Under the pieces are notes generated by a model. That model searched no databases, was not told the DNA's origin, and was given only the letters and a program-made list of their open reading frames with translations. A stretch of DNA of 52,279 bases from an uncultured Erysipelotrichaceae bacterium (GTDB taxonomy: Bacteria; Bacillota_I; Bacilli_A; Erysipelotrichales; Erysipelotrichaceae), in assembly GCA_927435855.1 (NCBI GenBank), contig CAKMJZ010000029.1, forward strand, positions 1 to 52,279. Direction: 5' to 3'. Position numbers and translations under genes: made by a program. Positions 29,711 to 45,719 of this stretch are shown in pieces (positions within the stretch are counted from its first letter, which is position 1; each line of letters starts with the position of its first letter).

Positions 29711-30853
29711 CTAATGGTTTTGTAACCAGCGATTGGGATCGGACTCGGCGATAGATAAGTTATTCTGCTTGCCATCACGCACGACCTTCTCCCCGTATAT
29801 ATAAGACTCTTTGATTAATGAAAGATAATTCTCCAATGGAACATTATCCTGAATACGATTGGAAACGGACATGATCAGACGTCCCTTATTGGGTTGCCAG
29901 AAAACATCGGTAATGAACCGGACTTCCTGCGCAACATCCTCAACACTACCATACGGTAATATCTGTTGAAGATCGACACCGACCCAAAAACACAACCGAT
30001 CTTTATATTTTTCGAATATCTCACGCTCATTCATCGCAAATTTCTGAATCGGATGTAACACATCCACCCCCGATTCAACCAGTGCTTCCATCAGTAACGT
30101 TATATCCCCGCAACAATGTAACCAAACGTGCATATTGAAACTGTGAACATAGTCAAACACTTCTTTATAATATGGAAAGTAGTACTCACGGAAGAGGTCT
30201 TCGGACATAAAGGGACCCTTTTGCATGCCCAAGTCATCCGGAAAGCAGACCGCATCAATGTCTTTACTATGTGCTGCCCGCTCGATAACTTTTTTCATAA
30301 AATCAACCAGTTTTCGATTAAGCTTATGAATGTTTTCCCCTTCCAAATATAAATCTAACAAAGAATTGGTAATACCACGATAATCCCAATGACGATTAAA
30401 CAGAAACGGAGATATTGACATCACGCGATAACGACCATCCGGCTCAGGCGCATCGTCCAACAACGGTGGATAATCCGGATCTGGAGATAATGGTGATATC
30501 TGATTGATAATATCCCACTCAATTGAATTTTCTTCATCGATTCCAACCGTCTCACCTGGGTATCTACGCAAATGCGGGTCCGCATCCTTGACATCACACC
30601 AACAAAACGGATCGCCCGGCTCCCCAAAGAGTTTGGGCTTTTTCATATAGAAATGTTGAATGTCACACGGATGGTCTTTGTGTAAAGCAATGATTGGCGG
30701 ATGTTTGTCTTCTGAAAGTTCATCCAGATGAAGCCAGTGCCCGCAAGTGACCACCGAAGGACGCACTCCATTTTTACCCTCAATCAAATCCCTCATTTCC
30801 TGACGAGATAACGGTGGATACTTGGCATTGGGAAATTGATTATCTAGTGGCAT
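29711..30853 (-). CDS. UroD-family corrinoid-dependent methyltransferase, copy 2
   Basis: The protein has 380 residues and the URO-D fold of the MtaA/MtbA/CmuA superfamily: FPDDLGMQKGPFMSEDLF and VWLHCCGDI with a His-x-Cys zinc site, then a Cys in LCFWVGVDLQQILP as the likely third ligand. Known relatives move methyl groups between a substrate or tetrahydrofolate and a corrinoid protein. It is a paralogue of the 378-residue protein at 36813, with both starting MPLD. AGAGGAG precedes the ATG. One of the pair may be the substrate enzyme and the other the carrier enzyme. Heme-pathway UroD is unlikely in this context. Confidence 0.82.
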   Translation of the reverse strand: MPLDNQFPNAKYPPLSRQEMRDLIEGKNGVRPSVVTCGHWLHLDELSEDKHPPIIALHKDHPCDIQHFYMKKPKLFGEPGDPFCWCDVKDADPHLRRYPGETVGIDEENSIEWDIINQISPLSPDPDYPPLLDDAPEPDGRYRVMSISPFLFNRHWDYRGITNSLLDLYLEGENIHKLNRKLVDFMKKVIERAAHSKDIDAVCFPDDLGMQKGPFMSEDLFREYYFPYYKEVFDYVHSFNMHVWLHCCGDITLLMEALVESGVDVLHPIQKFAMNEREIFEKYKDRLCFWVGVDLQQILPYGSVEDVAQEVRFITDVFWQPNKGRLIMSVSNRIQDNVPLENYLSLIKESYIYGEKVVRDGKQNNLSIAESDPNRWLQNH

Positions 30854-30865: not shown

Positions 30866-31774
30866 TCACGGATTACGAGTTTGTACCGTAAATCCTTGTG
30901 ACTTAATCAACTCTAACAAATTTTCGACATTACTTTCGTACTCTTCTACTCTCTGATTCAACGGATACGGTAATCCCAATCGGATATATTTCCCTTTACC
31001 CAACGTGTGATAGGGTAATAGTTCTATCAGTGATACATTAGCTCCACTTTGTTTCAAACGTTCACATCGTAACCTCATATCTTCAAGTTGATCATTGACA
31101 CCAGGTACGATAATCATACGAACGATTAGTTCTTTACCTAACTTCGACAAATGATCGAGATTTTCGAAAATCACAGCATTTCCAGATTGAATATATTGAA
31201 CGTGTTTCTCTTCATCGTGAAATTTCAAATCATACAGTATGAGGTCCACCTCAAAAGCAAGTTCTTTCCAATGGTCCCAAGGTAATCCACCGGAAGTGTC
31301 AAGTGCGACATGAATACCTTCTTCCTTCAATCTTCGAGTTACATCCAACAGAAAATCTGATTGCATGATCGGATCGCCACCGCTAAACGTAACTCCGCCC
31401 TTGGAATTTCGATAAAACGGCTCATCCTTCATACATTCTTCGATCAACATCTCGACACTCATTTCCTTACCGATAATTTCAAAAACATCATAGGGACAAC
31501 TTTGTGCTAATAGGTCAATATCGTGAATCAACGCTCGATTGACCTTAAGTTTTCCTTCAATTGTAATAGCCTCAGGTTCAACCCGAACACACTCCTCACA
31601 CAACGTACATTTCTGATCAAAAATCATCAACTGCTTCTCTTTTTTCAGTGCTTCCGGATTACTGCACCACGCACAGCGCAACGGACAGCCCATCATAAAC
31701 ACCGTCGTACGAATCCCGGGACCATCATGCAGACTATATCGCTGAATATTCGATACTAATCCCACTTTATCCAT
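30866..31774 (-). CDS. Glycyl radical enzyme activase (radical SAM)
   Basis: The N-terminal region reads SLHDGPGIRTTVFMMGCPL followed by the radical-SAM Cys triad C-x3-C-x2-C (residues 39-46). A ferredoxin-like insert follows, with CTLCEEC at 61-67 and a further Cys in SCPYDVF. That is enough for one extra [4Fe-4S] cluster, because the usual second Cys set is missing (VRVEPEA). GGVTFSGGDP is the SAM-binding glycine motif. It would install the glycyl radical on the enzyme encoded just upstream. Starts at GTG 31786 or ATG 31780 are also possible. I take the ATG at 31774 because GTGAG lies seven bases before it. The gene overlaps the partner's stop. Confidence 0.9.
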   Translation of the reverse strand: MDKVGLVSNIQRYSLHDGPGIRTTVFMMGCPLRCAWCSNPEALKKEKQLMIFDQKCTLCEECVRVEPEAITIEGKLKVNRALIHDIDLLAQSCPYDVFEIIGKEMSVEMLIEECMKDEPFYRNSKGGVTFSGGDPIMQSDFLLDVTRRLKEEGIHVALDTSGGLPWDHWKELAFEVDLILYDLKFHDEEKHVQYIQSGNAVIFENLDHLSKLGKELIVRMIIVPGVNDQLEDMRLRCERLKQSGANVSLIELLPYHTLGKGKYIRLGLPYPLNQRVEEYESNVENLLELIKSQGFTVQTRNP

Positions 31775-34184
31775 GACCATGCTCACTGCGCGATATAATC
31801 GCTTCTTGTGCTTCGGGCATCAACGATATAAACTGCGCACAATATCCCGCAACCCGAACGATTAAATCAGAGTACAGATGAGGATTCTTCTGTGCTTCTC
31901 GCAACGTTTTTGTATCCACGATATTGAACTGATTGTGATAAATATTAAGTTCGATACTTGTCCTTAATAAATCGATGAACTTATCTAAATCCTCATCCTT
32001 TGATAACGATGAAGGTGTAAAGCGCATATTTAACAACTGCCCAGCCGCAACCTGGTGATTGGGTAATCTAGATACCGATTTCAATACGGCTGTCGGCCCA
32101 TGAGTATCCGTTCCTTGAGTCGGAGAACAACCCTCATTGAGCGGCTGTTGAGCAAAACGGCCATCCGGAGTTGCCCCAACTTCCAAACCATTGGGTACAT
32201 ACGCCGTAATGTTGGATGTTGACATGGTATAGCGACTGATTAAAGGTCCTTTACCGCTTCGCACCGTTTTGTACATAGGGAGTAACTCTAAATAACTTTC
32301 AAACACTTTCGCTACAATTTCATCAACTTCATCAATATCATTACCATACTTCGGCAAGTGACGGATCATCTTATGAATCTTCGCGGACTCAAGGCTTTGC
32401 CAATTGTCCGAAAGAGCAGCCTTCAACTGATTCAACGTCAGCTTCTGTTCATCAAAAATCAGTTTCTTCATCGTATACAACGAATTACCAACCACGGATG
32501 GACCGATATTGGACTGCGAAATGACATCATACTTACATCCACCTTCCTTCAATGTTTTACCAAGTTCAAAAGCATTTTGAATAAAACAGGAAGCCAACGG
32601 ACTGGCATCGTATTTGATTAATGAGCGATCGCAAATCGCATCACTTTCCACAGCAAGATCCGTATAGTATGTTAAGATTTTCTTCCAACCTTGCCAAAGT
32701 TGATCGTAATTTGAAAATTCTATATCCTTCCCTGATTTTCCATTGATTGAGAACTGTTGAATGTTTGTTATCGGATCCACTCCATTGTTCACCAACATTT
32801 CCAACAGTTTTCCCCAGTTGCAATACGTCATACCGGTCGCCCTGTGACCGTATTTTCCCGCAACCCCGGTTTCCACACAGCCAATCGCACAGTAATCACG
32901 AGCATCTTCAATCGGAATTCCCAAATCCGTCAGTCCGCGAATCGCAACGGCATCATTGAACATCGCTGGCATACCCGTGCCACTGCGAATCAACTTCGCC
33001 CCTAATTTCAGTAGATCATCAGGTGTGTCTTTATGATAGCGCATCGCAAAATTTGGTTCTTTCAATGCGGTCAGATTCATCGCCTCAATACACAAAGTTG
33101 AAAGTGCGTTGGTCGCATCTTTTCCCTCCGGAGTTAATCCGCCAATCATTAGATTGGAATACAGCGGATATCCCTGAGAAAACTTGGTGTGTCCGTTGGG
33201 TCGGATTTTATTGGTACTGTTGGTCATAAGGAAGAAGTGAGTAATGATTTCAAGGGTAGTACTTTCGTTCAATATCCCCTTTTCGACATCTTTTATATAA
33301 TACGGATTCGCATATTGATCGAATCTTCCAAAACAGAAGCTATGACCATTACTTTCAATCAACTGTAAAATATGGACCAGATAGGTCGCCTGAACACACT
33401 CCATAAAGCTTTGTGCCGGTTGTTCCATCAAGGTCGTCGCTATTTTGGCCATATCCAAAAGTTCAGATTTACGCTTACCTTTTTCTTTAATTGAAAGTTT
33501 TTCAGCTAACTCACCATATCGCTTGATCCAACGCAGGGCTGCTTCAAGTGAGATGATGACAGCTTGATAAAATGACTTTTGCTCAATTGTTTGTTCTTCT
33601 ATTATTTTCTTATTCGCCTCATCAATATACCAACGAAACCCTCGATTCAACAGCGTCGGATAATCCGGGACAATGTGCCCATCCCCAGACATCGAAATCC
33701 CACCCAGATGCAACGATCCGGTTTTACCGGCCAGACGAATTTCATCGGTCAGATTTTTTCCTACTTCATCTTTATGAGTTTTGCCAAGCCAAAAGTCAGA
33801 TATAGAGAAGAGATCTGCTTTGACCTTTTCTTCGACTTGAAATACATCTCCCTTACGCAAAGGGAAGGTATCAATTTCATCAACCAACCAATCCATCGAA
33901 TATTCCGGATAAATCGGTGCTGCGAAATTCTTGGATGCCATATTTCCGAAAATCAAGCTGTCCGCTTCGATGAAAATCGTCATATGATCCAAGGTATGGG
34001 CAAATGCTTTGGCTTTTCTTAATATATACGGCTCATTCTCTGTTTTCTTAAACGATTCCGTATACAACAAAGCTCGCTGCGAACACAACGAAGCCTTGGT
34101 ATCAAGCATTTTCTTTCTTAAACGATGAATACGCAAACGCGCAACATCATTCAGAGCGATGTTTGTTAGTAAGTTTCTTTCCAA
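31767..34184 (-). CDS. Glycyl radical enzyme, diol-dehydratase-like, substrate unknown
   Basis: The protein has 805 residues. The glycyl-radical loop RVAGYCAQF puts the radical on Gly780. The thiyl Cys436 lies in AIGCVETG with Glu438 two residues later, the C-x-E signature of the eliminase/dehydratase class (glycerol, propanediol, choline, hydroxyproline enzymes). His281-Ser282 in SNGHSFCFGRFDQY and His170 in SGDGHIVPDYP correspond to substrate-binding residues of glycerol dehydratase. The position equivalent to its Asp447 appears to be Thr450. The start is TTG, 19 bases inside deoC, with AAGGA nine bases upstream. It keeps the family N-terminus RLRIHRLRKKML. The context suggests a sugar- or polyol-like substrate. 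Confidence 0.9.
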   Translation of the reverse strand: MERNLLTNIALNDVARLRIHRLRKKMLDTKASLCSQRALLYTESFKKTENEPYILRKAKAFAHTLDHMTIFIEADSLIFGNMASKNFAAPIYPEYSMDWLVDEIDTFPLRKGDVFQVEEKVKADLFSISDFWLGKTHKDEVGKNLTDEIRLAGKTGSLHLGGISMSGDGHIVPDYPTLLNRGFRWYIDEANKKIIEEQTIEQKSFYQAVIISLEAALRWIKRYGELAEKLSIKEKGKRKSELLDMAKIATTLMEQPAQSFMECVQATYLVHILQLIESNGHSFCFGRFDQYANPYYIKDVEKGILNESTTLEIITHFFLMTNSTNKIRPNGHTKFSQGYPLYSNLMIGGLTPEGKDATNALSTLCIEAMNLTALKEPNFAMRYHKDTPDDLLKLGAKLIRSGTGMPAMFNDAVAIRGLTDLGIPIEDARDYCAIGCVETGVAGKYGHRATGMTYCNWGKLLEMLVNNGVDPITNIQQFSINGKSGKDIEFSNYDQLWQGWKKILTYYTDLAVESDAICDRSLIKYDASPLASCFIQNAFELGKTLKEGGCKYDVISQSNIGPSVVGNSLYTMKKLIFDEQKLTLNQLKAALSDNWQSLESAKIHKMIRHLPKYGNDIDEVDEIVAKVFESYLELLPMYKTVRSGKGPLISRYTMSTSNITAYVPNGLEVGATPDGRFAQQPLNEGCSPTQGTDTHGPTAVLKSVSRLPNHQVAAGQLLNMRFTPSSLSKDEDLDKFIDLLRTSIELNIYHNQFNIVDTKTLREAQKNPHLYSDLIVRVAGYCAQFISLMPEAQEAIISRSEHGHG

Positions 34185-34903
34185 CCGGAATCATCCTTCT
34201 TTTGATTGGCAATATCCAAAACAACAGGCGTCGACTTATAGCCGATTCCCATGCGATCAATACCCATATCGATTAAACTCAAAAAAGCTTCACGGGTACG
34301 AATTCCACCGGACCCCTTGATTTTACAACGTCCATTCGCCACGTCCATCATTGCGGAAATAACTTCAACGGTTGCTCCATCGGTTTTACTGGTAAAAAAT
34401 CCAGTCGAAGTCTTAACGAAATCAGCTCCAGCTTCAATCGCAACTTCCGTCGCCTTCTTCACTTCATCCATCGTCAATGCGTCAGTTTCAAAAATGACCT
34501 TAACTTCAACATTATGTTTATGACATTCATCGCATACCGCACGGATGTCATCACGCACTTCATCCCACTTGCCACTGCGAATCCAACCATAGTTCGCGAC
34601 CATATCCAATTCAAAAACATCCCAGCCTTCACAATACATCTTCGCTTGCATGACTTTGGATTCAGTCGTACTTAAGCCAAAAGGAAAATCACAGACGACA
34701 CAAACTTTTGTGTCAGTTCCCTTACACATTTCTTGAGCAATATCCAAAGCGGAAGGATTGATACAAACCGTACGACAACTAAAATCAATTCCCTCTTGGA
34801 TGTACTTACGGATTTCCGCCTCCGAAAACTCCGGTTTTAATACCGACTGATCGATATACGCCGCCAATTCCTTGACGGACATTTCACTTGCTTTTTTTCT
34901 CAT
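34166..34903 (-). CDS. deoC: deoC, deoxyribose-phosphate aldolase
   Basis: This TIM-barrel aldolase has 245 residues. The Schiff-base Lys is in ADFVKTSTGF, the second active-site Lys in CKIKGSGGIR, and the conserved Asp in FELDMVANYGW. Known DeoC enzymes split 2-deoxyribose-5-phosphate to acetaldehyde and glyceraldehyde-3-phosphate. No deoxynucleoside genes (deoA, deoB, deoD, cdd) are nearby. Its place directly before a dehydratase-class glycyl radical enzyme suggests it cleaves a deoxysugar phosphate made in this pathway. Confidence 0.93.
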   Translation of the reverse strand: MRKKASEMSVKELAAYIDQSVLKPEFSEAEIRKYIQEGIDFSCRTVCINPSALDIAQEMCKGTDTKVCVVCDFPFGLSTTESKVMQAKMYCEGWDVFELDMVANYGWIRSGKWDEVRDDIRAVCDECHKHNVEVKVIFETDALTMDEVKKATEVAIEAGADFVKTSTGFFTSKTDGATVEVISAMMDVANGRCKIKGSGGIRTREAFLSLIDMGIDRMGIGYKSTPVVLDIANQKKDDSGWKETY

Positions 34904-34912: not shown

Positions 34913-35353
34913 CTAACCTTTCAGTTCTTCGAGAAACTCATCCAACATCTTAGCCGCAAAAGCAACCAGATGCTCACAATCCTTAACCTTTACTCCATCC
35001 CGAATCTCTTCGGGACGGGTCTTATTGATTTCTAACAAATCACGACATAACAGAGAACCCTTTTTCTCGCGAAACTGCTCTCCCAACTCTTTGACTCGTG
35101 AATAATGTTCTTCTTTAGCAACTTTGTTTTTCTCATCGGTACCGCTTAGCAACATTCCCGTCGCCATAAAAGCTCCACTCAGTGCTCCACATACTTCACC
35201 CAGACGACCCATCCCGCCACCAAAAGACGAAGAAATCTTGAATGCCTCGTTGCGATCCATTCCTGTAACATCGCAAAACGCACAGTAGACCGCTTGAGAA
35301 CAATTGTATCCCTGATTAAACAAATCTACCGCAATCTTTTCGTGAGTTGTCAT
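34913..35353 (-). CDS. C_GCAxxG_C_C family (putative redox) protein
   Basis: The protein has 146 residues with the spaced cysteines of the family: YNCSQAVYCAF, then GEVCGALSGA (C-G-A-x-x-G), SLLCRDLL and KDCEHLV. The biochemical role is not firmly known. The cysteine pattern suggests a metal or redox cofactor. The start overlaps the RACE stop by ATGA, so it may supply electrons for corrinoid reactivation, which is inference. Confidence 0.85.
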   Translation of the reverse strand: MTTHEKIAVDLFNQGYNCSQAVYCAFCDVTGMDRNEAFKISSSFGGGMGRLGEVCGALSGAFMATGMLLSGTDEKNKVAKEEHYSRVKELGEQFREKKGSLLCRDLLEINKTRPEEIRDGVKVKDCEHLVAFAAKMLDEFLEELKG

Positions 35354-36813
35354 ACGTTTCCTCCCTCAAATAACATGTGCTCGCTAAATAATTCTAACCA
35401 TTTAGCACTACTGGCTAGCTCAATCACTTTAATTGACTCAATGTTCCACTGAGTCGGTACTTTCTTTTCTTCACTCAGCCAGCTGACACAACCAGCTAAG
35501 GACGAATTACCGATGAAAGTGGTGTTTTCACTACATTGTTGGGGAATCAATCCGATATTGATAGCCGCTTCAAGATTGATGTGCTTACCAAATCCTCCCG
35601 CAATGATCAAAGAATCAAGCCGGTCATACGAAATTCCTGCTCGTATCAAACACATATCCATACCGCTGCGAATCGCGGCTTTTGCGAGTTGAAACTCACG
35701 TATATCTTTTTGAGTAATGGATATCCGGGGATGTTCATGTAAAATGACTTCTTCCATCATATAACCACTCGATTCCAGTGGTCCCTTAAGTAAACAACTG
35801 ATTAAATCGATATATCCGGAACCACAGATGCCCACAGGGGATCCTTCGTTGATCGTAGTGAAATTTATCTTCTCTTCATTTACAAAAAAGTGATCGATGG
35901 CACCATTTATTGCCCCACATCCCGACGACATATTAACACCTTCAAACGCCGGACCGGCCGCTGTACTGGTCGCATATAATTTTCCATCGCTTACTAAAAC
36001 AATCTCACCATTGGTGCCCAAATCGATAAATAGGATGTTGTCTCTTGTTTCAAACAAGTTAATCAACGACATTCCGGCTAATATATCCGAGCCTAAATAG
36101 GCGGCAATCGGCGGATAGACACTAATCGTTCCTTCAACATCAATACCTAACTCCGCTTTAATCGATTGAGTCACCTTTTTGATAACAGAGGGTCGGTACG
36201 GTATTTGTACCAACGGACGCACATTCGCATTCAGCCACAAATGATTCATTGTCGTATTTCCGGTTATACCTATGGACATTGACTTCGGTTGAAAACGAGC
36301 AACGATATCTTCCACATTTTTTTTGATCTCATTTTTGATCAAACGATGACAAACATTATTATTTGACAACGTCACTTCGATGCGCGACAAGACATCGGCA
36401 CCATATGTACGTTGCGGATTGGTAAATTTATGTTCCAATAAAACTTCACCACTTTTACCATCGATAAGCACCATTACGACCGTTGTTGTACCTAAATCGA
36501 TGGCCAGAAGCAAATCGACGATGCTTTTCTTTACATCGACATGTCCCTTATCCAATCCTAAAACAATAATATTCTCCTTATCAACCAGGGATACATTGAC
36601 ATCATCTTCAAGGACCGGATGTTGACAGGCCAATCGAATGTTTTCCTTGATCTGCAAAGTAGACAAAAGCTTGACTTCTGTTTCTGTCAACGGCAACTCT
36701 TTATCGAGTTTGACTTTACACTTGCCACACATCCCCCGACCATTACAAAGTGCACTTAGAGCTCCCTGACTTCGAACTTCTTCAAACAGATTTAACCCTT
36801 TTTTTACCTTCAT
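35350..36813 (-). CDS. Reductive activator of corrinoid enzymes (RACE/RACo-like, DUF4445)
   Basis: The protein has 487 residues. The N-terminus holds a short plant-type ferredoxin domain with Cys23, Cys29, Cys32 (LCNGRGMCGKCKV) and Cys63 (RLACQH) for one [2Fe-2S] cluster. An ASKHA-fold ATPase follows: LLAIDLGTTTVVMVLID, SIGITGNTTMNHLWL, ILFIDLGTNGEIVLV, SGCGAINGAIDHF and IAGGFGKHINLEAAI. Such proteins use ATP to return Co(II) corrinoid to the active Co(I) state. It is a little shorter than typical members (500-650). Its ATG shares a base with the methyltransferase stop (TGATG) and lacks a strong ribosome site, so translation is probably coupled. Confidence 0.9.
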   Translation of the reverse strand: MKVKKGLNLFEEVRSQGALSALCNGRGMCGKCKVKLDKELPLTETEVKLLSTLQIKENIRLACQHPVLEDDVNVSLVDKENIIVLGLDKGHVDVKKSIVDLLLAIDLGTTTVVMVLIDGKSGEVLLEHKFTNPQRTYGADVLSRIEVTLSNNNVCHRLIKNEIKKNVEDIVARFQPKSMSIGITGNTTMNHLWLNANVRPLVQIPYRPSVIKKVTQSIKAELGIDVEGTISVYPPIAAYLGSDILAGMSLINLFETRDNILFIDLGTNGEIVLVSDGKLYATSTAAGPAFEGVNMSSGCGAINGAIDHFFVNEEKINFTTINEGSPVGICGSGYIDLISCLLKGPLESSGYMMEEVILHEHPRISITQKDIREFQLAKAAIRSGMDMCLIRAGISYDRLDSLIIAGGFGKHINLEAAINIGLIPQQCSENTTFIGNSSLAGCVSWLSEEKKVPTQWNIESIKVIELASSAKWLELFSEHMLFEGGNV

Positions 36814-37949
36814 CAGCGATCTGGCAAGACCGTATGGTCTTTAGATGGTGATTCGTGTTTACCAACCCCATGTTTAGCCACATACGATCCATAAGTATAA
36901 AGTTCTTCAAAGAATGCCCGAATATTCTCAGTGGGAATGTCATGGCGGAAGCGATTTCCGCTAGCTAACACTAGACGACCTTTATCAGGAAGGTAGAATG
37001 TATCTATCAAAAAACGCATTTCCTGACGGACGTCTTCCGGTGATCCAAATGGTAAAATACGTTGAACTTCCATGCCTGCCCAGAAACAGATTTTATCGCG
37101 ATACTGTTCAATAATCTTCTCTTCATCCATCGAATATTTTTGAATCGGATGCAAAACATCCAAACCGATTTCAATCATATGAGGGATAAATGGCTCAACG
37201 TTGCCACAGGTATGTAACCAGACGTCCATACCTTTACTATGAGCGTAATCGATAACTTCTTTATAGTGCGGCTTAATAAATTCTAGAAATATATCCTCAG
37301 AGAAAAACGGTCGGTCTTGCATTCCGATATCATCAGTAAAAGCGATGGCATCAAAGTTATATTCATCGACCGAACGGTCAATCACCTTGAAAATAATTCT
37401 TCGCAGTTTGAGTAACAACGCTTTAACCTCATCCGGATTCAAATAGAAATCCATTAGAGTATCGGTCATTCCACGGAAATGCCATAAGCGTTCAAAGGAC
37501 AGTCGCGTCCAAAAAATCCCGCGATAACGCCCGTCATCCTCAAAAAAATCTTGTACCAGACACTCTGGGAAATACGGATCAGGAACATCCGGTGATATTT
37601 GTTCGATAATGTCCCATTCTAACGCAGTCTTTTCATCGATACCGACTTCATCCTCATTTTTATGTAATAAAGGATCAGCATTCTCGACATCACACCACAC
37701 ATAACGGTCGCCCGGTTTTCCAAAATTCTTTGGTCGGGTATACTCAAAGAATACCGCATCATCCGGATATTCCTCGATGATTTGTTCCATCTCTTTTTGA
37801 CGAATCGGTTGCTCGGAAGGTAAGTACAAAATCGGGGTGACACACTGAGCCGGTCGTGTAAATCCCTTCCCTTTAATCATAGCTTTCACTTCCTCACGGC
37901 TTAAAAGATCCTTCTTCGCCTTGGGAAACTTTGATTGATCCAACGGCAT
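36813..37949 (-). CDS. UroD-family corrinoid-dependent methyltransferase, copy 1
   Basis: The protein has 378 residues. It contains FTDDIGMQDRPFFSEDIF and VWLHTCGNV with the His-x-Cys zinc ligands, and a downstream Cys in ICFWAGMEVQRILPFG. It lies between the corrinoid protein and the RACE gene, the usual set of an anaerobic methyl-transfer system. Compared with its paralogue at 29711, the catalytic core is alike and the N-terminal substrate-facing third differs most. AAGGAGG precedes the ATG. The methyl donor cannot be told from sequence. Confidence 0.85.
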   Translation of the reverse strand: MPLDQSKFPKAKKDLLSREEVKAMIKGKGFTRPAQCVTPILYLPSEQPIRQKEMEQIIEEYPDDAVFFEYTRPKNFGKPGDRYVWCDVENADPLLHKNEDEVGIDEKTALEWDIIEQISPDVPDPYFPECLVQDFFEDDGRYRGIFWTRLSFERLWHFRGMTDTLMDFYLNPDEVKALLLKLRRIIFKVIDRSVDEYNFDAIAFTDDIGMQDRPFFSEDIFLEFIKPHYKEVIDYAHSKGMDVWLHTCGNVEPFIPHMIEIGLDVLHPIQKYSMDEEKIIEQYRDKICFWAGMEVQRILPFGSPEDVRQEMRFLIDTFYLPDKGRLVLASGNRFRHDIPTENIRAFFEELYTYGSYVAKHGVGKHESPSKDHTVLPDR

Positions 37950-37961
37950 AGTTAATCCTCC

Positions 37962-38603
37962 TTACGCAAAGCGCGCTTCTAGTAAATCAGCTAAAGAAAC
38001 AGCATCGGGTGTATATACATCTGCCTTGACTTGTTGAGCATACGCTTGAGTGACCGGTGCTCCACCGACACAAATCAATAGATTTTCACGTAAATCATTT
38101 TCTTCAAGTGCACTGACCACTTCTCTGAAGTGAATCATTGAAGTCGTCAGAAGTGCGGACATACACAAAACTTGAGGTTTATGTTCCTTAATGGCATCTA
38201 CGAATTTCTCCGGTTTGACATTGACACCTAAATCAACGATTTCAAAACCTCGTGACTTCAACATCAAGCCAATCAGATTTTTACCGATATCATGCAAATC
38301 GTCCAATACCGTACCAATGACAACTTTACCATGATTTTTCCGCTCACCTTTGGCTAGTTGAGGTTCTAAAACGGCTAACCCGATATTCATCGCTCGCGCT
38401 GTAATCAAGACTTCGGGAATAAAGGCTGTACCGTTTTTCCAAGCTTCCGCAACCCGTTGCATCGCCATCAGTAAGCCACCTTCCAAAATTTCCATGGCAC
38501 TCAACCCTTCGTCCAATGCTGATAAACACAACTGCTCGATTTCTTTGATTTTCCCCTTGATGACCTTTTCCTGAATGTTTGCTAAAATTTCTGAATGACT
38601 CAT
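37962..38603 (-). CDS. Corrinoid (B12-binding) methyl-carrier protein
   Basis: The protein has 213 residues. An N-terminal helical cap domain (1-85) is followed by the cobalamin domain with the base-off/His-on signature DDLHDIGKN, then SALLTTSM and GGAPV, the standard S-x-L and G-G motifs of MtaC/MtbC/MttC and MetH. It accepts methyl from one methyltransferase and gives it to another. It is the first gene of the operon, with AAAGGAGG before the ATG and an extended -10 promoter upstream. Confidence 0.93.
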   Translation of the reverse strand: MSHSEILANIQEKVIKGKIKEIEQLCLSALDEGLSAMEILEGGLLMAMQRVAEAWKNGTAFIPEVLITARAMNIGLAVLEPQLAKGERKNHGKVVIGTVLDDLHDIGKNLIGLMLKSRGFEIVDLGVNVKPEKFVDAIKEHKPQVLCMSALLTTSMIHFREVVSALEENDLRENLLICVGGAPVTQAYAQQVKADVYTPDAVSLADLLEARFA

Positions 38604-38647
38604 AGTGCCTCCTTTTTCATGATTCGTTTGATACTCTGTCTATTTAA

Positions 38648-38653
38648 ATTATA
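38648..38653 (-). promoter_or_regulatory. Extended -10 promoter of the corrinoid operon
   Basis: On the minus strand TGGTATAAT lies about 45 bases before the corrinoid-protein ATG. No good -35 box is visible, so an activator may be needed. Confidence 0.55.
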
Positions 38654-38676
38654 CCAAATACCTGTGCTTGATTATG

Positions 38677-38705
38677 AAAAAAACTGACGTCAAAATGCGT
38701 CAGTT
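38677..38705 (-). terminator. Terminator after the first NanE-like gene
   Basis: On the minus strand AACTGACG and CGTCAGTT form an 8-bp perfect stem followed by seven T. It separates nanE from the corrinoid operon. Confidence 0.9.
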
Positions 38706-38711
38706 AAATCA

Positions 38712-39461
38712 TTATTTGTGAACGTGTTTACTGCGTTCGGCGTTTCGCCAGTTATCCTGATAACCGCTAAGTAAATCAACATAGCGTTTGGCCGTCAAGT
38801 GCGGACGCGTAATCGCACCGCCAACAACAACGGCATGTGCTCCTAAGAAAATACATTTCATCGCATCTTCCGGTGTATAAATATGACCTTCCATAAAGAC
38901 ATAAGCATCTTCATTCAACTCCCGACAAAACTCACCGAACATCCGATAGTCCGCACCTTCGATGTGAGCTGTTTCTTTTGTGTAACCATACAACGTCGGA
39001 GCTACGATGTCCGCACCTAATCTAACGGCTTCCCGAGCTTCTTCAATGGTAGATACATCCGCAAATACCAGGACATCCGGATAAGCTTCTTTTAATTTTG
39101 GTAGTAATTCAATGGCTCTATTGCCTTCATGATTGATTTGAAAGGTACAGTCCAAAGCAATGATATCTGCTCCTGCTTCAATCAGCTGTTTACAAGCGTC
39201 CAGTGTCGGCGTAATGAAGACATCTGTGTTTTCAAACCACATTTTATACAGCGCAATGATGGGTAAATCGATTTCACTTTTGATCAAACGGATATCACGT
39301 GGCGAATTCGCCCGGATACCGACAGCTCCAGCCCACAAGGCTGCTCTGGCCATAACCAAAACGATATCATCGGTGTAAATCGGTTCATCCGGATATGCCT
39401 GACAGGAAACAATCAGCCCACCCTTCATCTTTTCAATAATTTCACTTTTTCTTCTTGGCAT
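38712..39461 (-). CDS. nanE: NanE-like N-acylmannosamine-6-phosphate 2-epimerase homologue, copy 1
   Basis: The protein has 249 residues from MPRRKSEIIEKMKGG. That start is chosen for AAGGAG seven bases before it. The family hallmarks GGLIVSCQA, GAVGIRAN, the catalytic Lys in IIALYKMW, the catalytic Glu in VFMEGHIYTPEDA and GGAITRP are present. The block that usually reads D-A-T-x-R-x-R-P reads DCTFQINHEG, so the sugar pocket differs. No nanA, nanK, nagA or nagB is near. It is a monocistronic unit with its own promoter and terminator between the formaldehyde-type and corrinoid operons. The substrate is probably another 2-epimerisable sugar phosphate. Confidence 0.82.
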   Translation of the reverse strand: MPRRKSEIIEKMKGGLIVSCQAYPDEPIYTDDIVLVMARAALWAGAVGIRANSPRDIRLIKSEIDLPIIALYKMWFENTDVFITPTLDACKQLIEAGADIIALDCTFQINHEGNRAIELLPKLKEAYPDVLVFADVSTIEEAREAVRLGADIVAPTLYGYTKETAHIEGADYRMFGEFCRELNEDAYVFMEGHIYTPEDAMKCIFLGAHAVVVGGAITRPHLTAKRYVDLLSGYQDNWRNAERSKHVHK

Positions 39462-39488
39462 AACAATCTCCTTCATATTAACACTTAT

Positions 39489-39517
39489 ATTATAGGTCAA
39501 AAACCACAGTTCTACAA
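39489..39517 (-). promoter_or_regulatory. Promoter of the first NanE-like gene
   Basis: On the minus strand TTGTAG, 17 bases, then TATAAT, about 27 bases before the start codon. Confidence 0.75.
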
Positions 39518-39558
39518 CAAATAATTGTCATATTCTTGCATATTCTTTCATTTTCAAT

Positions 39559-39582
39559 CAAAAAGCCGGAACTCCGGCTTTG
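39559..39582 (-). terminator. Terminator after hxlB
   Basis: On the minus strand AAGCCGGA and TCCGGCTT pair around GT and are followed by TTTTG. It closes the DUF1638-hxlA-hxlB operon. Confidence 0.85.
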
Positions 39583-39583
39583 C

Positions 39584-40144
39584 TTATTCTAGGTTCGCAT
39601 GGCGCGAAAACATGTTGTCTTTATCGATATTCATACGGTCCATCAGCACCATGATTAAGATGTCCAAATATAGCAATAAACTTTGTTCAAACAGATTTCC
39701 CATCGGTTGAATGGAGATGATATCGCCTTCTTTAACAGCCTTAGGAGATGGTGCCTCAATTTTGATAATCACATTTGCCAGTTTGCCAATGGTCGATTCC
39801 GGATTAATGGTTACCAGAACAATCGGAGCCCCAATGGATACGGCTTTTTCAGCCATGGATACCAAACTCTTCGTCTCACCTGATCCTGAGCAAATGACCA
39901 AGACCCCGCTCTTTCGCAAATTTGGTGTAACCACTTCACCAACCATATAACTTCGTAAGCCTAAGTGCATCAAACGCATACAGAAGGCACGAGCCATCAG
40001 ACCACTGCGACCTGCGCCAGCTACGAAAATTTCATCAGCTTCTAATAAAGCATCCCCTAGGTCCTCGGTCAATCCTAAAGGAATACGTGTCAGCGCTTCT
40101 CTCAATTCGGATACAACCAACAAAGCTTTTTCTCTGGCATTCAT
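39584..40144 (-). CDS. hxlB: 6-phospho-3-hexuloisomerase (PHI)
   Basis: The protein has 186 residues. It is a SIS-fold isomerase with IFVAGAGRSGLMARAFCMRL, VLVICSGSGETKSLV and the typical PHI ending FSRHANLE. It converts arabino-3-hexulose-6-phosphate to fructose-6-phosphate. It follows hxlA directly, with GGAGGG inside the end of hxlA. The pair normally fixes formaldehyde (RuMP pathway) or, run backwards, makes ribulose-5-phosphate. Confidence 0.92.
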   Translation of the reverse strand: MNAREKALLVVSELREALTRIPLGLTEDLGDALLEADEIFVAGAGRSGLMARAFCMRLMHLGLRSYMVGEVVTPNLRKSGVLVICSGSGETKSLVSMAEKAVSIGAPIVLVTINPESTIGKLANVIIKIEAPSPKAVKEGDIISIQPMGNLFEQSLLLYLDILIMVLMDRMNIDKDNMFSRHANLE

Positions 40145-40777
40145 TTACTTGCCCTCCATGATTTCTTTGATACGCTTAGCCGATACAACAGGATCTAGCG
40201 AAGAGGCAATTCCCCCGCCGACCACAATAATCTCTGGTTTTTCTTTGACAATATCTCCTACAGTCGCAACTTTTACTCCACCAGCCACCGCCGCTTTTCC
40301 TGTTGTGAGCACAGAAGTAATCAAACGAAGTTCATCGAGCGGATTAACTCCGGTCGATTGAATATCGAAGGCCGTATGGACGCATAGATAATCCACACCT
40401 AATTTCTCAATTTCCAGAGCTCTCGATCGAACTTCGTGCACATCGATCATATCCACCAATACTTGTTTACCATAAGCTTTTGCGGCTTTGACAACACCGG
40501 CAATCGTTGAATCATGGGCAACACCCAAGACCGTAACGATATCCGCACCCTTAGCAAAGCACAGTTTTGCCTCATGTTCCCCGGCATCCATGATCTTAGC
40601 ATCCGCAAGAATCAGTTTTTCCGGAAATCTTTCTTTGAAAAGAGCAACCGGCCGTAGTCCGTGTTCTAGTATAAGCGGTGTTCCGATTTCAATGATATCG
40701 ATATAATCTCGCACTGATTCAACTAAATCAATTCCCTCTTCAATCGTACACACATCCAAAGCCAGTTGTAATTTCAT
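40145..40777 (-). CDS. hxlA: 3-hexulose-6-phosphate synthase (HPS)
   Basis: The protein has 210 residues and belongs to the OMP-decarboxylase suprafamily. MKLQLALDVCTIEEGIDLV, IIEIGTPLILEHG, the catalytic region ILADAKIMDAGEHEA, DIVTVLGVAHDSTI and VAGGVKVATV fit HPS, which adds formaldehyde to ribulose-5-phosphate. The sister enzyme 3-keto-L-gulonate-6-phosphate decarboxylase is the main alternative. The adjacent hxlB favours HPS. It could capture formaldehyde released in demethylation or serve pentose supply. Confidence 0.88.
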   Translation of the reverse strand: MKLQLALDVCTIEEGIDLVESVRDYIDIIEIGTPLILEHGLRPVALFKERFPEKLILADAKIMDAGEHEAKLCFAKGADIVTVLGVAHDSTIAGVVKAAKAYGKQVLVDMIDVHEVRSRALEIEKLGVDYLCVHTAFDIQSTGVNPLDELRLITSVLTTGKAAVAGGVKVATVGDIVKEKPEIIVVGGGIASSLDPVVSAKRIKEIMEGK

Positions 40778-40778
40778 A

Positions 40779-41456
40779 TCATTTCTCCCTACTGACGAAC
40801 ACTTCGTCTAAATCATAGATCGCAAACAGTTCTTCATCTTCTTTAAGAACAACGGCATCGTTATCTTTTCCATCAATGAAATCTTGCATCATCTGCCATC
40901 CGCCACTCACAATTTCCAGAGGACGTCCGATATTCTTCTTTAAAAACTCTTGATCTTCTTTCAATCCGAAATCAAAAAATACGGTTGTTTCATTTTTGGG
41001 TTTATGCAATGTTTCTAATATATACTCCGCATTATCCTCGCCATACTCCTGCTTAATGCGCAGATATTCCAAAGACATGCGATAGTTTTCGGAGGACTCC
41101 AAGACATCATATGCCACACAAGAATAACTTTGACTTAATCGATGCGCAAACAATTCTTTATAGCGTTTCCGACTTCCCGCAAGAACCATTCCGCAGTCAT
41201 GCACTTTTAACAGTCGAATCGGAATACTGTTGCTTTTAAGCGGTAAAATGGCATTACCGCATAGACCGTACATTACCAATATTTCATCAACATCACTGAT
41301 TCGGTCGATATCTTGTTGAAGCAGTATTGCCAACTGCTCTGGATGATTATGTTGTTTGACTTCCAAAAAGACGACGGATTGGATGTCGTCTCTGTTATTT
41401 AACAGAATTTTGAGGTAAGGTTCAAAAACCGCACAACTGATGATAGCTTTTTTCAT
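40779..41456 (-). CDS. DUF1638 protein
   Basis: The protein has 225 residues. MKKAIISCAVFEPYL, VMYGLCGNAILPL and LLKVHDCGMVLAGSRKRY with conserved Cys and His suggest a metal or cofactor site. DUF1638 proteins occur in methanogens and anaerobic bacteria, often close to corrinoid methyltransferases. The function is not known. It leads the hxlA-hxlB operon, two bases before hxlA. Confidence 0.75.
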   Translation of the reverse strand: MKKAIISCAVFEPYLKILLNNRDDIQSVVFLEVKQHNHPEQLAILLQQDIDRISDVDEILVMYGLCGNAILPLKSNSIPIRLLKVHDCGMVLAGSRKRYKELFAHRLSQSYSCVAYDVLESSENYRMSLEYLRIKQEYGEDNAEYILETLHKPKNETTVFFDFGLKEDQEFLKKNIGRPLEIVSGGWQMMQDFIDGKDNDAVVLKEDEELFAIYDLDEVFVSREK

Positions 41457-41486
41457 AGAGATAGCCTCAACATTCTTACATATTCT

Positions 41487-41492
41487 ATTATA
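41487..41492 (-). promoter_or_regulatory. -10 box of the DUF1638-hxlA-hxlB operon
   Basis: On the minus strand a consensus TATAAT lies about 31 bases before the start codon. The -35 region (TTTTTG or GTTTTT) is weak, so regulation by an activator is possible. Confidence 0.55.
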
Positions 41493-41537
41493 AGTTTACT
41501 AAAATTTGCAAAAACAATCAAATAGACTTTGCGATTC

Positions 41538-41566
41538 TTTAAAATCAAACCATCTTACGATATAAT
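41538..41566 (+). promoter_or_regulatory. Promoter of the membrane-protein pair
   Basis: TTTAAA, 17 bases, then TATAAT. The transcript starts before the ATG at 41589. This settles the start there and not in the longer open frame from 41529, which would include the promoter. Confidence 0.65.
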
Positions 41567-41588
41567 AAGGTGTGTGAGGTATGAATCA

Positions 41589-42131
41589 ATGGCCAATGTT
41601 AAGATGACGGAAGTCGAAGCGCAGTATCAGAGAATCAATATTTTTAAGGGAAAGCATAATCGGTTGATCTTTTATCGGCCGTTACTGAAGAAAGCTTATC
41701 AAGTCGTCAAGGAAGATGTGAAGCAAATCCAGATTTATCACTATCGATTGTTTATTGTCCTATTTGTTTCCTTAATGGCTATGGTCATTACCGATGAAGA
41801 CCTTCTGTTAACTGTTGGAGCAGGAGTACTGGCTCTTGTATTGGTCGAGGCTTGGTTTTATTTCTTCAAGATCCGCTCATTTACTCCTCTGTTGAATTTT
41901 ACTCCGTCAAAACGGATTGGATTTATTCAAACGCATTTGGATGAATCCTATAAAGTCGTCAATATCCGCATATTTTCCTATGCGGCGATATCCATTGCGG
42001 CTGTTGCAGGAGCATTTGTCGGCGATTATCAGCCGTTGTACTTCTTTGGTATGATGGCCATCGCAGCTTTTGGATTGTATCAAGTGGGTATACTTGTTTA
42101 TGTGCAGTCACTGCGCAAGAAAGGAAGATGA
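41589..42131 (+). CDS. Hypothetical membrane protein, about four TM segments
   Basis: The protein has 180 residues from MANVKMTEVEAQYQRIN, with GAGGT about eight bases ahead. Hydrophobic segments are paired at about 57-73 and 76-94, then at 127-145 and 149-168, with a basic cytoplasmic link TPSKRIGFIQTHLDESYK. I do not recognise a family. It overlaps or abuts the next gene and is probably co-expressed with it. Confidence 0.65.
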   Translation: MANVKMTEVEAQYQRINIFKGKHNRLIFYRPLLKKAYQVVKEDVKQIQIYHYRLFIVLFVSLMAMVITDEDLLLTVGAGVLALVLVEAWFYFFKIRSFTPLLNFTPSKRIGFIQTHLDESYKVVNIRIFSYAAISIAAVAGAFVGDYQPLYFFGMMAIAAFGLYQVGILVYVQSLRKKGR

Positions 42132-42133
42132 TT

Positions 42134-42913
42134 ATGAAAGATTTCAAAGAAATGTTCGAACTTATTTCTACGTATCAAAACCTCGACTATGAGGAAGTGT
42201 ATGTTGATGAAGCGTATACCTTCACCCCTTACAAGAAAATCGAAGATTTAATGGATGAAGTCAAAGAGTTATTACCGACATTGTCAAAAGAAGAGGCAAC
42301 CCGACTGTTAGTCCAATTTGTCAAGACTGCCGAAGCAAACATTAAGTCACGTTATTACATCAATACGGACTTCCGTGAATATGCGGCCGTAGAATCCGCA
42401 AGAAGTGCGGATGGATTTATAGAAAAAGCCAGCACTTTTTTCGCACTCGACTTTCCATCCTTGGTTAATACCGATCCGATGAAAATTCAAGCCGCATTCG
42501 ACCGTATGAAAGTGATGGTCGCACAGTTTATGACAACGCCTCGTACCTTAGTCGTTTACAAACGTGATCCGAATTTTGTTAAGGATGAAATCAAAACCAC
42601 GATCAGTCCTTCGACGATTCGTGATTTTGACCCACTCTCAGAAGGAACGGTCAGTGATTGGAAATCGATTTTCATCTCTGTCAACGATAAATCCGTATGT
42701 CCTCCGGTTGAAGCATACAATAAGTACATGGAAGATCACCGCATGGTGAAGGAATACATTAAAAACGAACCGAAATCTAAGAACATTTATAAGCGTAAAG
42801 GATTTGAGAAAACGTACAATTACATCAAAGAAACCAAGCAATCCATAAAGTCTATTTTGATTTTAGTCGCATTGATTGCGATTGTCGTTATCTACTTTAT
42901 ATTCTTCAACTAA
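42134..42913 (+). CDS. Hypothetical tail-anchored protein
   Basis: The protein has 259 residues. The body is soluble and mostly helical, rich in Lys and Glu. A C-terminal TM segment (about 240-258, ILILVALIAIVVIYFIFF) gives a tail-anchored layout with a cytoplasmic body. The ATG at 42134 is preferred over 42128 because AAAGGA is eight bases before it. No known family is recognised. It is paired with the membrane protein upstream. Confidence 0.65.
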   Translation: MKDFKEMFELISTYQNLDYEEVYVDEAYTFTPYKKIEDLMDEVKELLPTLSKEEATRLLVQFVKTAEANIKSRYYINTDFREYAAVESARSADGFIEKASTFFALDFPSLVNTDPMKIQAAFDRMKVMVAQFMTTPRTLVVYKRDPNFVKDEIKTTISPSTIRDFDPLSEGTVSDWKSIFISVNDKSVCPPVEAYNKYMEDHRMVKEYIKNEPKSKNIYKRKGFEKTYNYIKETKQSIKSILILVALIAIVVIYFIFFN

Positions 42914-42937
42914 AGCTGCCAAAAGGCAGTTTTTTTA
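42914..42937 (+). terminator. Terminator after the tail-anchored gene
   Basis: CTGCC, loop AAAA, GGCAG and seven T. Confidence 0.92.
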
Positions 42938-42942
42938 TTTCA

Positions 42943-42973
42943 TTGCTCACTTCTTGTGAAATAAAGGTATAAT
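42943..42973 (+). promoter_or_regulatory. Promoter of the aldo/keto reductase gene
   Basis: TTGCTC, 19 bases, then TATAAT, 24 bases before the start codon. Confidence 0.55.
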
Positions 42974-42996
42974 TGTACTATGGCAGGAGGATAACT

Positions 42997-44121: not shown

Positions 44122-44169
44122 TCAATATCAGTATAACGTGCCCGAATTCTAGAGAATAATCCGTTGAAT

Positions 44170-44204: not shown

Positions 44205-44221
44205 CAATTTCCCATAAACTA

Positions 44222-44959
44222 CTAGTGCTTACTCTTCTCGGCCTCTCGCCAGTTATTTTGATATCCGCTCAACAAATCCACAAACCGCTTTGCCGTTAAA
44301 TGCGGACGAGTGATAGCACTACCCACAACCACTGCATGTGCCCCTAAAAACACACATTTCATCGCATCTTCCGGTGAATAGATATGCCCTTCCATAAATA
44401 CATAAGCATCCTCATTGAGCTGTCTACAGAATTCAGCGAACATCCGATAGTCCGCTCCTTCAATATGAGCGGTTTCTTTGGTATACCCATACAAAGTCGG
44501 AGCAACGATATCTGCACCTAAGCGTACAGCTTCTTTGGCTTCTTCGATATTGGAAACATCTGCGAATATCGGGATGTTTGGAAATGCCTTTTTGACTTCC
44601 GCCAATAACTCAATAGCCCTTCTTCCTTCGTGATTGATCTGAAATGTACAGTCTAACGCCAATATATCCGCACCGGCCTCAATGACCTGGGCGGCGGCTT
44701 GCAGGGTTGGGGTGATAAACACATCACTATGCTCATCCCAGATCTTATACAATCCGATCAAAGGTAAATCGACTTGCGCTTTAATCGCTTTGATCTGCTC
44801 TGGGGAATTTGCGCGAATACCCACGGCACCCGCCCACTTCGCAGCTTTAGCCATAATCACAACAATATCATCGGTATAAATGGGATCATCTTTTTGTACC
44901 TGACAAGAAACAACCAATCCGCCCTTCATCTTCTCAATGAGTTCGCTAGGCTTTCTCAT
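44222..44959 (-). CDS. nanE: NanE-like epimerase homologue, copy 2
   Basis: The protein has 245 residues from MRKPSELIEKMKGG. It is a close paralogue of the copy at 38712, sharing GLYKIW with the catalytic Lys, FMEGHIYSPEDA with the catalytic Glu, and the same unusual DCTFQINHEG block. It overlaps the DeoR-type regulator gene by 14 bases, so it is probably under that regulator's control. Two copies in separate units suggest differently induced uses of the same reaction. Confidence 0.82.
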   Translation of the reverse strand: MRKPSELIEKMKGGLVVSCQVQKDDPIYTDDIVVIMAKAAKWAGAVGIRANSPEQIKAIKAQVDLPLIGLYKIWDEHSDVFITPTLQAAAQVIEAGADILALDCTFQINHEGRRAIELLAEVKKAFPNIPIFADVSNIEEAKEAVRLGADIVAPTLYGYTKETAHIEGADYRMFAEFCRQLNEDAYVFMEGHIYSPEDAMKCVFLGAHAVVVGSAITRPHLTAKRFVDLLSGYQNNWREAEKSKH

Positions 44960-45719
44960 GATTCTTCTCAACGCCTGCCAAATTCTCAATATTGCATTCT
45001 ATCGGGATTTCATCCGTATAGACAATATCAAATTCATCTGTCATAGCAAAAAGGCAGAAACCACGCTTCTCAAATTTACCGGAATCAACCAATAGAATAT
45101 TGGTGATAGAATGCTTCATTACAGCCTGTTTTTGAGCCGCAACTTCCAGCGATGCGGAATAGCATTCTTTAGTGATAGGATCAAGACCTGAAGCTCCGAT
45201 AAACGCCAAATCATAGCGGAAATTTCCGGCTTCCGACGTTGCCAGACTGCCTACTACGGTTTCATGATAAATATCATACGAACCACCAATCATATGGACC
45301 GTTCCGGCAAAGGGTTTCATCTTCTTGATAGCCATCATATTGGGTGTGACGATATGCACGCGCTTTTTCATCAAATGAGGAATGATAAAAGCCGTCGTGG
45401 AACCACCATCGACATAAATGCACATATCATCTTCAACCAAAACTGAAGCCATATCACAAACCATTTTTTTCTTATCGCAGTTAATCGTGCTGCGCAGATT
45501 CATGGGATAGTCAGAAATCTGAGTCAGTGTATGTACGACACTGTTCAATACAGCGCCGCCATGTTGCCGTTTCAGACGTCCCTGACGCTCTAACTCGTCC
45601 AAGTCTCGGCGGACCGTAGCTTCCGAAACCCCCAACTCCTTTGATAACTGCCGAATCGACACGGCTGGATGTTCATCCAACCGATTTATTATATAAATCA
45701 ACCTTTCGCTAGCTAACAT
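44946..45719 (-). CDS. DeoR-family transcriptional regulator
   Basis: The protein has 257 residues from MLASERLIYIINRLDEH, preceded by AAGGAG. The N-terminal HTH (15-60) includes VSIRQLSKELGVSEATVRRD and the DeoR link LKRQHGGAV. The C-terminal DeoRC sensor domain has YVDGGSTTAFIIPHL and VDSGKFEKRGF and binds a phosphosugar. It is co-transcribed with the second NanE-like gene. A palindrome overlaps its own promoter, so autoregulation is likely. Confidence 0.9.
   Translation of the reverse strand: MLASERLIYIINRLDEHPAVSIRQLSKELGVSEATVRRDLDELERQGRLKRQHGGAVLNSVVHTLTQISDYPMNLRSTINCDKKKMVCDMASVLVEDDMCIYVDGGSTTAFIIPHLMKKRVHIVTPNMMAIKKMKPFAGTVHMIGGSYDIYHETVVGSLATSEAGNFRYDLAFIGASGLDPITKECYSASLEVAAQKQAVMKHSITNILLVDSGKFEKRGFCLFAMTDEFDIVYTDEIPIECNIENLAGVEKNHEKA

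Follow-up and report, generated by a model that had tools for sequence, protein, structure and literature searches.

A DUF1638–HPS–PHI gene unit beside a corrinoid operon in a genus of Erysipelotrichaceae

The enzymes 3-hexulose-6-phosphate synthase (HPS) and 6-phospho-3-hexuloisomerase (PHI) are found in Thermococcus, where the ribulose monophosphate (RuMP) pathway reportedly substitutes for the pentose phosphate pathway. Here we analyze a stretch of 52,279 nucleotides from an uncultured Erysipelotrichaceae bacterium (G000:C29:1-52279, hereafter the window; genome of 1.57 Mb in 70 contigs, 69.7% complete), in which both enzymes are encoded in one unit with a DUF1638 protein, next to a nine-gene operon with corrinoid genes; the genus resembles Thermococcus in having HPS and PHI but differs in keeping glucose-6-phosphate dehydrogenase (G6PDH). 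For Brockarchaeota, corrinoid methyltransferases, tetrahydrofolate enzymes and RuMP have been proposed to operate together without carbon monoxide dehydrogenase/acetyl-CoA synthase (CODH/ACS), the nearest precedent and the only comparable proposal among the literature surveyed, as given in the available portion of the source (PMC8065059). The likeness to that proposal covers a corrinoid methyltransferase system, methylenetetrahydrofolate reductase (MTHFR), formate–tetrahydrofolate ligase (FTHFS), HPS, PHI and the lack of CODH/ACS; as far as the same portion describes them, Brockarchaeota differ in being archaeal and in having MtaB/MttB enzymes, and no gene positions are stated there for HPS and PHI (PMC8065059), whereas the genus studied here is bacterial and has its HPS–PHI unit physically beside the corrinoid locus, with DUF1638.

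DUF1638 proteins are widespread, and a phenotype, but no mechanism, has been published for the family. In the available portions of the sources, mutant data place it on the B12 side in Phaeobacter (PMC5764234), and in Ruegeria the level of the DUF1638 protein goes up on N-osmolytes, with a predicted role in making the reductive recharging of cobalamin possible (PMC12478193). The split methionine synthase or MtgBCD systems of these bacteria resemble our locus in joining a corrinoid protein, a ferredoxin-type (RamA-like) activator and DUF1638 (PMC5764234, PMC12478193); HPS and PHI are not named in those portions, homocysteine or glycine betaine serves as acceptor or donor, and the window differs in having URO-D proteins together with an aldolase and a glycyl radical enzyme. 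Set beside these systems, the finding is partly known and partly a lineage-specific variant. The explanation that we favor, with a probability of roughly 0.45, is a corrinoid-dependent methyl-transfer system, probably for demethylation, that is tied to sugar-phosphate chemistry, with DUF1638 as a helper and HPS/PHI as a sink.

The three-gene unit and its distribution

The unit lies on the minus strand and comprises the genes for the DUF1638 protein (PF07796; 40779..41456, 225 amino acids, 75.3 bits against a cut-off of 27), HPS (HxlA; 40145..40777, 210 amino acids, TIGR03128 equivalog, 259.2 bits against 200) and PHI (HxlB; 39584..40144, 186 amino acids, TIGR03127 equivalog, 225.6 bits against 160). 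The three genes are co-directional and separated by gaps of 1 nt and then 0 nt. The sequence-only reading, which preceded this analysis, had described DUF1638 as fused into an HPS–PHI operon; this stands in the operon sense, but the genes are three separate open reading frames (ORFs) and a protein fusion was rejected. In the NCBIfam profile scan, the DUF1638 protein matched no family. A seemingly fused HPS–PHI ORF of 363 residues, its PHI part recognized by eye, occurs in another genus of the family (L036, 9998-11089).

The unit is more than a chance arrangement, since the same gene order is kept in four other genomes of the genus (L008, L009, L010 and L011, with DUF1638 proteins 76%, 92%, 83% and 85% identical to that of the window). 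Three of these four loci continue into the same corrinoid/glycyl-radical operon, and L008 stops at a contig edge. Across the genus, DUF1638 is present in five of seven genomes and HPS over its cut-off in the same five. The nearest DUF1638 loci from named genomes, among the matches listed, are those of the metagenome-assembled genomes Erysipelotrichaceae bacterium (JAUYTU), Firmicutes bacterium HGW-Firmicutes-19 and -10, and Erysipelotrichaceae bacterium UBA2227.

It had been allowed that HPS might act here as a keto-gulonate decarboxylase, which did not hold. Assignment to 3-keto-L-gulonate-6-phosphate decarboxylase (UlaD/SgbH) was rejected on profile scores (NF009831, 83.7 against 294 bits; NF009832, 113.5 against 250 bits), and the AGRSI segment of the decarboxylase 1xbx reads VGGGI in the window protein, compared with AGGAI in the HPS structure 3ajx and VGSAI in 3f4w, so that the arginine, which we take to be catalytic in the decarboxylase, is missing. 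Judged by its sequence, the protein is HxlA, a predicted formaldehyde aldolase. Many small genomes with in-frame TGA, mostly of one family (f5), carry an HPS-family protein of ~135-167 bits, below the HxlA cut-off.

How far DUF1638 and HPS travel together depends on the unit of counting. In a sample of 392 genomes of the phylum, DUF1638 is over its cut-off in five and HPS in three, namely the window's genome, G011 from another genus and G264, a relative of Longicatena; all three are DUF1638 genomes (three of five, against 0/387 others; p 1e-6). Among 41 relatives, the window's own genome included, DUF1638 occurs in seven, HPS in 11 and both in six (p 6e-4). All overlaps fall within one family, and counted by genus the association is 2/3 against 5/28 (p 0.12). 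Neighborhoods were examined for 80 of 170 confirmed DUF1638 loci, four in the genus and 76 outside it, 39 of the 80 having 5 kb on both sides. HPS and PHI adjoin DUF1638 at the four same-genus loci; neither lies near it at any of the 76 outside loci (0/37 of those with 5 kb on both sides), and a general DUF1638–HPS link was rejected on this count. The statistical link of DUF1638 with HPS therefore stands by genome, is not significant by genus and is absent at the outside loci: it holds within this lineage but does not extend beyond it.

In G011, which belongs to another genus of the family, the same kinds of gene are seen in a different order at ~84-107 kb of one contig. There PHI, HPS, DeoC, an ORF without a Pfam match and a gene for the IID component of a phosphotransferase system (PTS) come first, followed by DeoR, a phosphomannose-isomerase-like ORF (by eye), NanE, a glycyl radical enzyme, its activase and DUF1638, and then by RACo, a corrinoid protein, MtaB and URO-D. 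HPS and DUF1638 are 14 kb apart, this DUF1638 belongs to a different part of the family tree, and the glycyl radical enzyme is only 25% identical to that of the window.

DUF1638 and the corrinoid side

DUF1638 tracks the corrinoid activator RACo, which is present in all five genomes of the phylum sample with DUF1638 over the cut-off, against 11/392 overall (Fisher p 6e-9, uncorrected for kinship). One further genome (G218) has a DUF1638 match of 20.7 bits, below the cut-off, and no RACo; it was left out of the Fisher tests. Within six ORFs of the 76 outside loci, RACo was found 23 times, a corrinoid protein 20 times and a detectable URO-D protein 11 times, where divergent URO-D or methyltransferase genes are under-counted because neighbors were sought by phmmer with the window's own proteins. 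Operons that join DUF1638 to corrinoid genes are also seen, such as URO-D–RACo–DUF1638–corrinoid protein at L013. In the named strain Longicatena caecimuris DSM 29481 (L101, 5346-11580), URO-D, URO-D2, a corrinoid protein, RACo, DUF1638 and a CobW-like GTPase form a compact operon with an adjoining PTS. The C-terminal stretch of the first URO-D protein at this locus is weakly thioredoxin-like (24.4 bits, cut-off 24.8).

The DUF1638 alignment (A2) and tree comprise the window and 53 of 83 rows, after near-copies, cut and over-long ORFs were dropped. In the midpoint-rooted tree, where L101 and L064 are flagged as long and unsure, the window's genus falls in a group (99/97) with four further rows, all four of them corrinoid-linked: Haloplasma contractile, Longicatena caecimuris, Candidatus Stoquefichus and Thomasclavelia, two of which are long and unsure. 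Residues C8, G64, C66, G67, N68, H86, D87, C88 and G185 are invariant in 54/54 rows, and H36 is kept in 53/54. Most rows came from a scan that demanded YG[LI]CGN around C66 (pattern [LI][LV][MLG]YG[LI]CGN), and in these the search itself accounts for part of the conservation of Y63-N68, and so of C66; rows found by profile likewise carry this stretch. On the earlier statement that DUF1638 proteins occur near corrinoid methyltransferases in methanogens, the analysis covered the presence of the family, which was found in the control genome Methanosarcina acetivorans.

These observations support the earlier suggestion that DUF1638 handles the corrinoid itself, with RACo in 5/5 genomes and at 23/76 outside loci, a corrinoid-linked tree group, and the Phaeobacter mutants as described in the available portion of the source (PMC5764234). 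Because DUF1638 tracks RACo, because HPS/PHI are absent from all 76 loci outside the genus, and because of the Phaeobacter genetics, DUF1638 probably serves the corrinoid and not formaldehyde, and we consider it fairly likely that it is a helper of the corrinoid protein. It may act with RACo by keeping the cobalt in, or returning it to, the active Co(I) state, and the conserved C8, C66, H86, C88 and H36, which are named here as candidate ligands, could hold a metal or a cluster. The comparison extends the tie between DUF1638 and corrinoid activators beyond the proteobacteria.

Proposed methyl-carbon flow and its alternatives

The steps beyond the corrinoid can be laid out as a tentative path. 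First: methyl groups would pass from the corrinoid to tetrahydrofolate by way of a methyltransferase (MeTr) encoded elsewhere in the genus. Second: MTHFR, with the electron transfer flavoprotein (Etf) as electron carrier, would oxidize the methyl group to methylene-tetrahydrofolate, at the level of formaldehyde. Third: HPS would fix formaldehyde on ribulose-5-phosphate, and PHI would then yield fructose-6-phosphate. DUF1638 would share a unit with HPS and PHI because both serve one growth condition, and not through formaldehyde binding.

A MeTr (NF005719, 349.5 bits against a cut-off of 259)–MTHFR (56.3 bits against 24)–EtfB–EtfA operon was found in the genus (L119, 4082-7575), with the same order recognized by eye at L120-L122. 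The genomes that carry it (G001, G002, G004 and G005) are the four other members of the genus with DUF1638 and HPS, and MTHFR gave no match in G003 and G006 (79% complete each), both without DUF1638 and HPS. This operon offers a path from methyl-corrinoid to methylene-tetrahydrofolate, whence formaldehyde could reach HPS. Acetyl-CoA synthase (CdhC, PF03598) is found in none of the seven genus members, two of them 98-99% complete, and the locus was not classed as Wood-Ljungdahl acetogenesis. It is possible, if unproven, that carbon released by demethylation ends up in HPS/PHI, and that the pair runs in the formaldehyde-fixing direction, on the product side, seems to us somewhat short of an even chance. 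The full version, a non-acetogenic bacterial anaerobic methylotrophy with B12-dependent demethylation of a sugar-linked methyl compound, transfer to tetrahydrofolate, Etf-coupled oxidation to formaldehyde level, refixation into hexose by HPS/PHI and DUF1638 as a dedicated corrinoid helper, is unlikely; if true, methyl groups would become sugar in an organism without acetyl-CoA synthase, by an anaerobic route that involves neither methanogenesis nor acetogenesis.

Several results weigh against the favored explanation. On the side of DUF1638, six of the 11 RACo genomes lack it, and 53 of the 76 outside loci (L049, L052, L063 and L070, for example) show neither RACo nor a corrinoid protein on the stretch fetched, so that DUF1638 may have a broader role, or its partners may be encoded in other parts of those genomes. 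The structural model of the protein (pLDDT 89.6, pTM 0.82) gave a best Foldseek E-value of 0.018, with no match at 0.001, and VIA-align reached a best Z of 7.7, with 128/999 chains at Z >=5 among asparaginase, Argonaute and LacI/periplasmic-binding folds; these model-based matches are read as reflecting only a common alpha/beta arrangement, and a comparison with PDB sequences gave no match up to E 1. On the side of the operon, neither URO-D protein reaches the MtaA/CmuA cut-off (TIGR01463, 235.4 bits; URO-D1 35.0 and URO-D2 33.4 bits), hairpins separate the three-gene unit from the corrinoid operon, and the motif that precedes the unit is not found upstream of that operon (see below). In G264, DUF1638 and HPS lie on separate contigs. 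On the side of carbon flow, MTHFR usually runs in the reducing direction, and it was not found in the window's genome (69.7% complete) or in G011 (97% complete), which has DUF1638, HPS and an MtaB-like gene. Finally, FTHFS is present in 7/7 genus members and in 15/16 genomes searched, and formate is for this reason an equally possible sink for the methyl carbon, and hence a live rival to HPS/PHI in that part of the scheme.

Among the rival explanations, the one that survives best is that HPS and PHI convert fructose-6-phosphate to ribulose-5-phosphate and formaldehyde, as a pentose supply or hexose shunt of the kind used by archaea without an oxidative pentose pathway, and that they lie near DUF1638 and the corrinoid genes by coincidence or only through co-regulation by a sugar signal. 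We regard this live rival as rather less likely than not; it has support in the relatives. Elsewhere in the family, HPS–PHI lies by phosphomannose-isomerase-type proteins (L030, L031), by a cupin-like ORF (L032, by eye) or by a mannitol PTS and a mannitol-1-phosphate dehydrogenase-like gene (L029), and no corrinoid gene was detected on these four HPS–PHI stretches, an observation that belongs with the points just listed; at L035 the pair is beside DeoC. Outside the genus, G6PDH is missing from all six family members whose HPS passes the cut-off, and the NanE, SIS and DeoC genes of the window show that the locus concerns sugar phosphates. The anticorrelation of HPS with G6PDH is weak, however, because G6PDH is missing as well from 8 of the 12 remaining family members there, in which no HPS passes the cut-off. 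G264 has both HPS and G6PDH. Within the genus the need for pentose is weaker, since G6PDH is present in 7/7 members and HPS/PHI are not the sole route to pentose phosphate, and the fact that HPS–PHI follows DUF1638 in 5/5 genomes having either speaks against incidental proximity. A pentose-supply role thus fits the relatives better than this genus, if weakly.

The corrinoid set could also be biosynthetic, with MTHFR making methyl-tetrahydrofolate, MeTr loading the corrinoid, and the methyl group going to homocysteine or another acceptor; DUF1638 and RACo would be helpers of methionine synthesis as in Phaeobacter, and HPS/PHI unrelated. The usual direction of MTHFR agrees with this, as does the region of G264 (L123, 9428-16374) in which an S-methyltransferase–MTHFR fusion and a MetH-like gene lie 1.6 kb and 3.3 kb, respectively, from HPS–PHI. 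The window operon, by contrast, encodes an aldolase and a glycyl radical enzyme along with two URO-D proteins, and the scan of window proteins around it brought up no homocysteine methyltransferase. We judge this account improbable. A direct action of DUF1638 on formaldehyde or methyl-level carbon, such as the delivery of formaldehyde to HPS, is very improbable: the tight unit in five genomes of one genus, the restriction of HPS to DUF1638 genomes in the phylum sample and the presence of HPS 14 kb from a DUF1638 of a different tree group in G011 would fit, but the absence of HPS/PHI from the outside loci, the by-genus p of 0.12 and five family members that have HPS over the cut-off without DUF1638 do not, and this part of the sequence-only reading is not supported.

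Transcription signals, the corrinoid operon and neighboring genes

Between the three-gene unit and the corrinoid operon lies a gene for a NanE-family protein (NanE1, putative N-acetylmannosamine-6-phosphate 2-epimerase; 38712..39461, minus strand, by profile scans). Immediately beyond PHI lies a hairpin whose T tract is on the minus strand (39562..39581, by eye), a probable terminator of the unit; it is present in L008, L010 and L011 and absent in L009, and the scanner lists it on the plus strand only. A second hairpin, terminator-like, is placed by the scanner past NanE1 and ahead of the corrinoid operon (38682..38705, minus strand). Because NanE1 intervenes and hairpins follow both PHI and NanE1, the unit is, as far as sequence tells, a neighbor of the corrinoid operon and outside its transcript; it adjoins the corrinoid genes, as had been claimed, but not without a gene and two hairpins in between. 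Over 28500-46000, promoter-like sites number 45 against 45.5 in shuffles and terminator-like sites 27 against 12.8, and an Rfam search over 28000-46500 gave nothing above the gathering score.

The motif AGAATATGNAAGAAT stands directly after a TATAAT upstream of DUF1638 (41469..41486, minus strand) and recurs upstream of NanE1 as one exact copy and one overlapping copy with two mismatches (39529..39556, minus strand). NanE1 has a TATAAT of its own in the window and in all four relatives (by eye). Upstream of DUF1638, the motif is exact in the window, L009, L010 and L011 and has one mismatch in L008; upstream of NanE1, it is exact in the window and L009, with one mismatch in L008 and two in L011, and none was found in L010. 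At up to two mismatches, no other site occurs in the window, L008-L011 or the four MeTr-operon loci; at up to three, there are six matches against 1.35 expected, a post hoc count, since the pattern was derived from its own sites, in which three of the six look like chance. The shared motif suggests that the DUF1638–HPS–PHI unit and NanE1 are co-regulated, perhaps by the nearby DeoR-family protein (44946..45719), a candidate regulator of the locus, whose gene is next to that of a second NanE-family protein (44222..44962); both genes are on the minus strand and were assigned by profile scan.

The corrinoid operon itself (28938-38603, minus strand throughout) is a tight run of nine genes with gaps of no more than 12 nt. 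It starts with a corrinoid protein with two B12-binding domains (37962..38603), the URO-D family protein URO-D1, a presumed methyltransferase (36813..37949), and a RACo-type corrinoid activator (35350..36813; RACo_C_ter 200.2 bits against 27, Raco_middle 119.2 bits against 26.8). RamA was tried for the activator and rejected (TIGR04270, 108.9 bits against 500). The operon continues with a C_GCAxxG_C_C redox protein (34913..35353), a DeoC-family aldolase (34166..34903; TIGR00126, 195.9 bits against 117.3), a glycyl radical enzyme (31767..34184) whose closest solved structures are 6xs4 and YbiW, a radical SAM protein that is presumably its activase (30866..31786), the second presumed methyltransferase URO-D2 (29711..30853), and a SIS-domain sugar isomerase-like protein (PRK02947; 28938..29699); annotations given without a score are from profile scans. 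MtaB (PF12176), of the methanol methyltransferase system, was found in none of the seven genus members (five 62-79% and two 98-99% complete) and, of 16 genomes, only in G011, where the protein is below the NCBIfam MtaB cut-off (434 against 720 bits).

The PTS genes, NanE, SIS and DeoC proteins and a glycyl radical enzyme with 6xs4 and YbiW as its nearest structures hint that the substrate is a sugar phosphate carrying a methyl group or some other modification. YbiW has been interpreted as acting on anhydroglucitol phosphate. The enzyme of the operon resembles the YbiW/PflD-type glycyl radical enzymes in having YbiW among its closest solved structures and differs from them in being accompanied by DeoC and corrinoid genes. 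At the window end there is a PTS IID-like gene that stays below its cut-off (178 against 293 bits), and the URO-D2 type recurs in G011 (405 bits) and in Longicatena (487 bits), each of which has PTS genes close by.

Among the literature titles listed on glycyl radical enzymes with deoxyribose-phosphate aldolase or pentitol, or on YbiW/anhydroglucitol, none names the nine-gene operon, and among those on HPS/PHI or a corrinoid protein in Erysipelotrichia none was fitting. The coupling of a corrinoid set with a glycyl radical enzyme and a DeoC aldolase in this operon, which is kept in the genus, is possibly more novel than the DUF1638–HPS–PHI unit. Beyond the locus, at 13438-28430, the window carries large signaling genes of PAS/HD-GYP and histidine kinase types (by eye).

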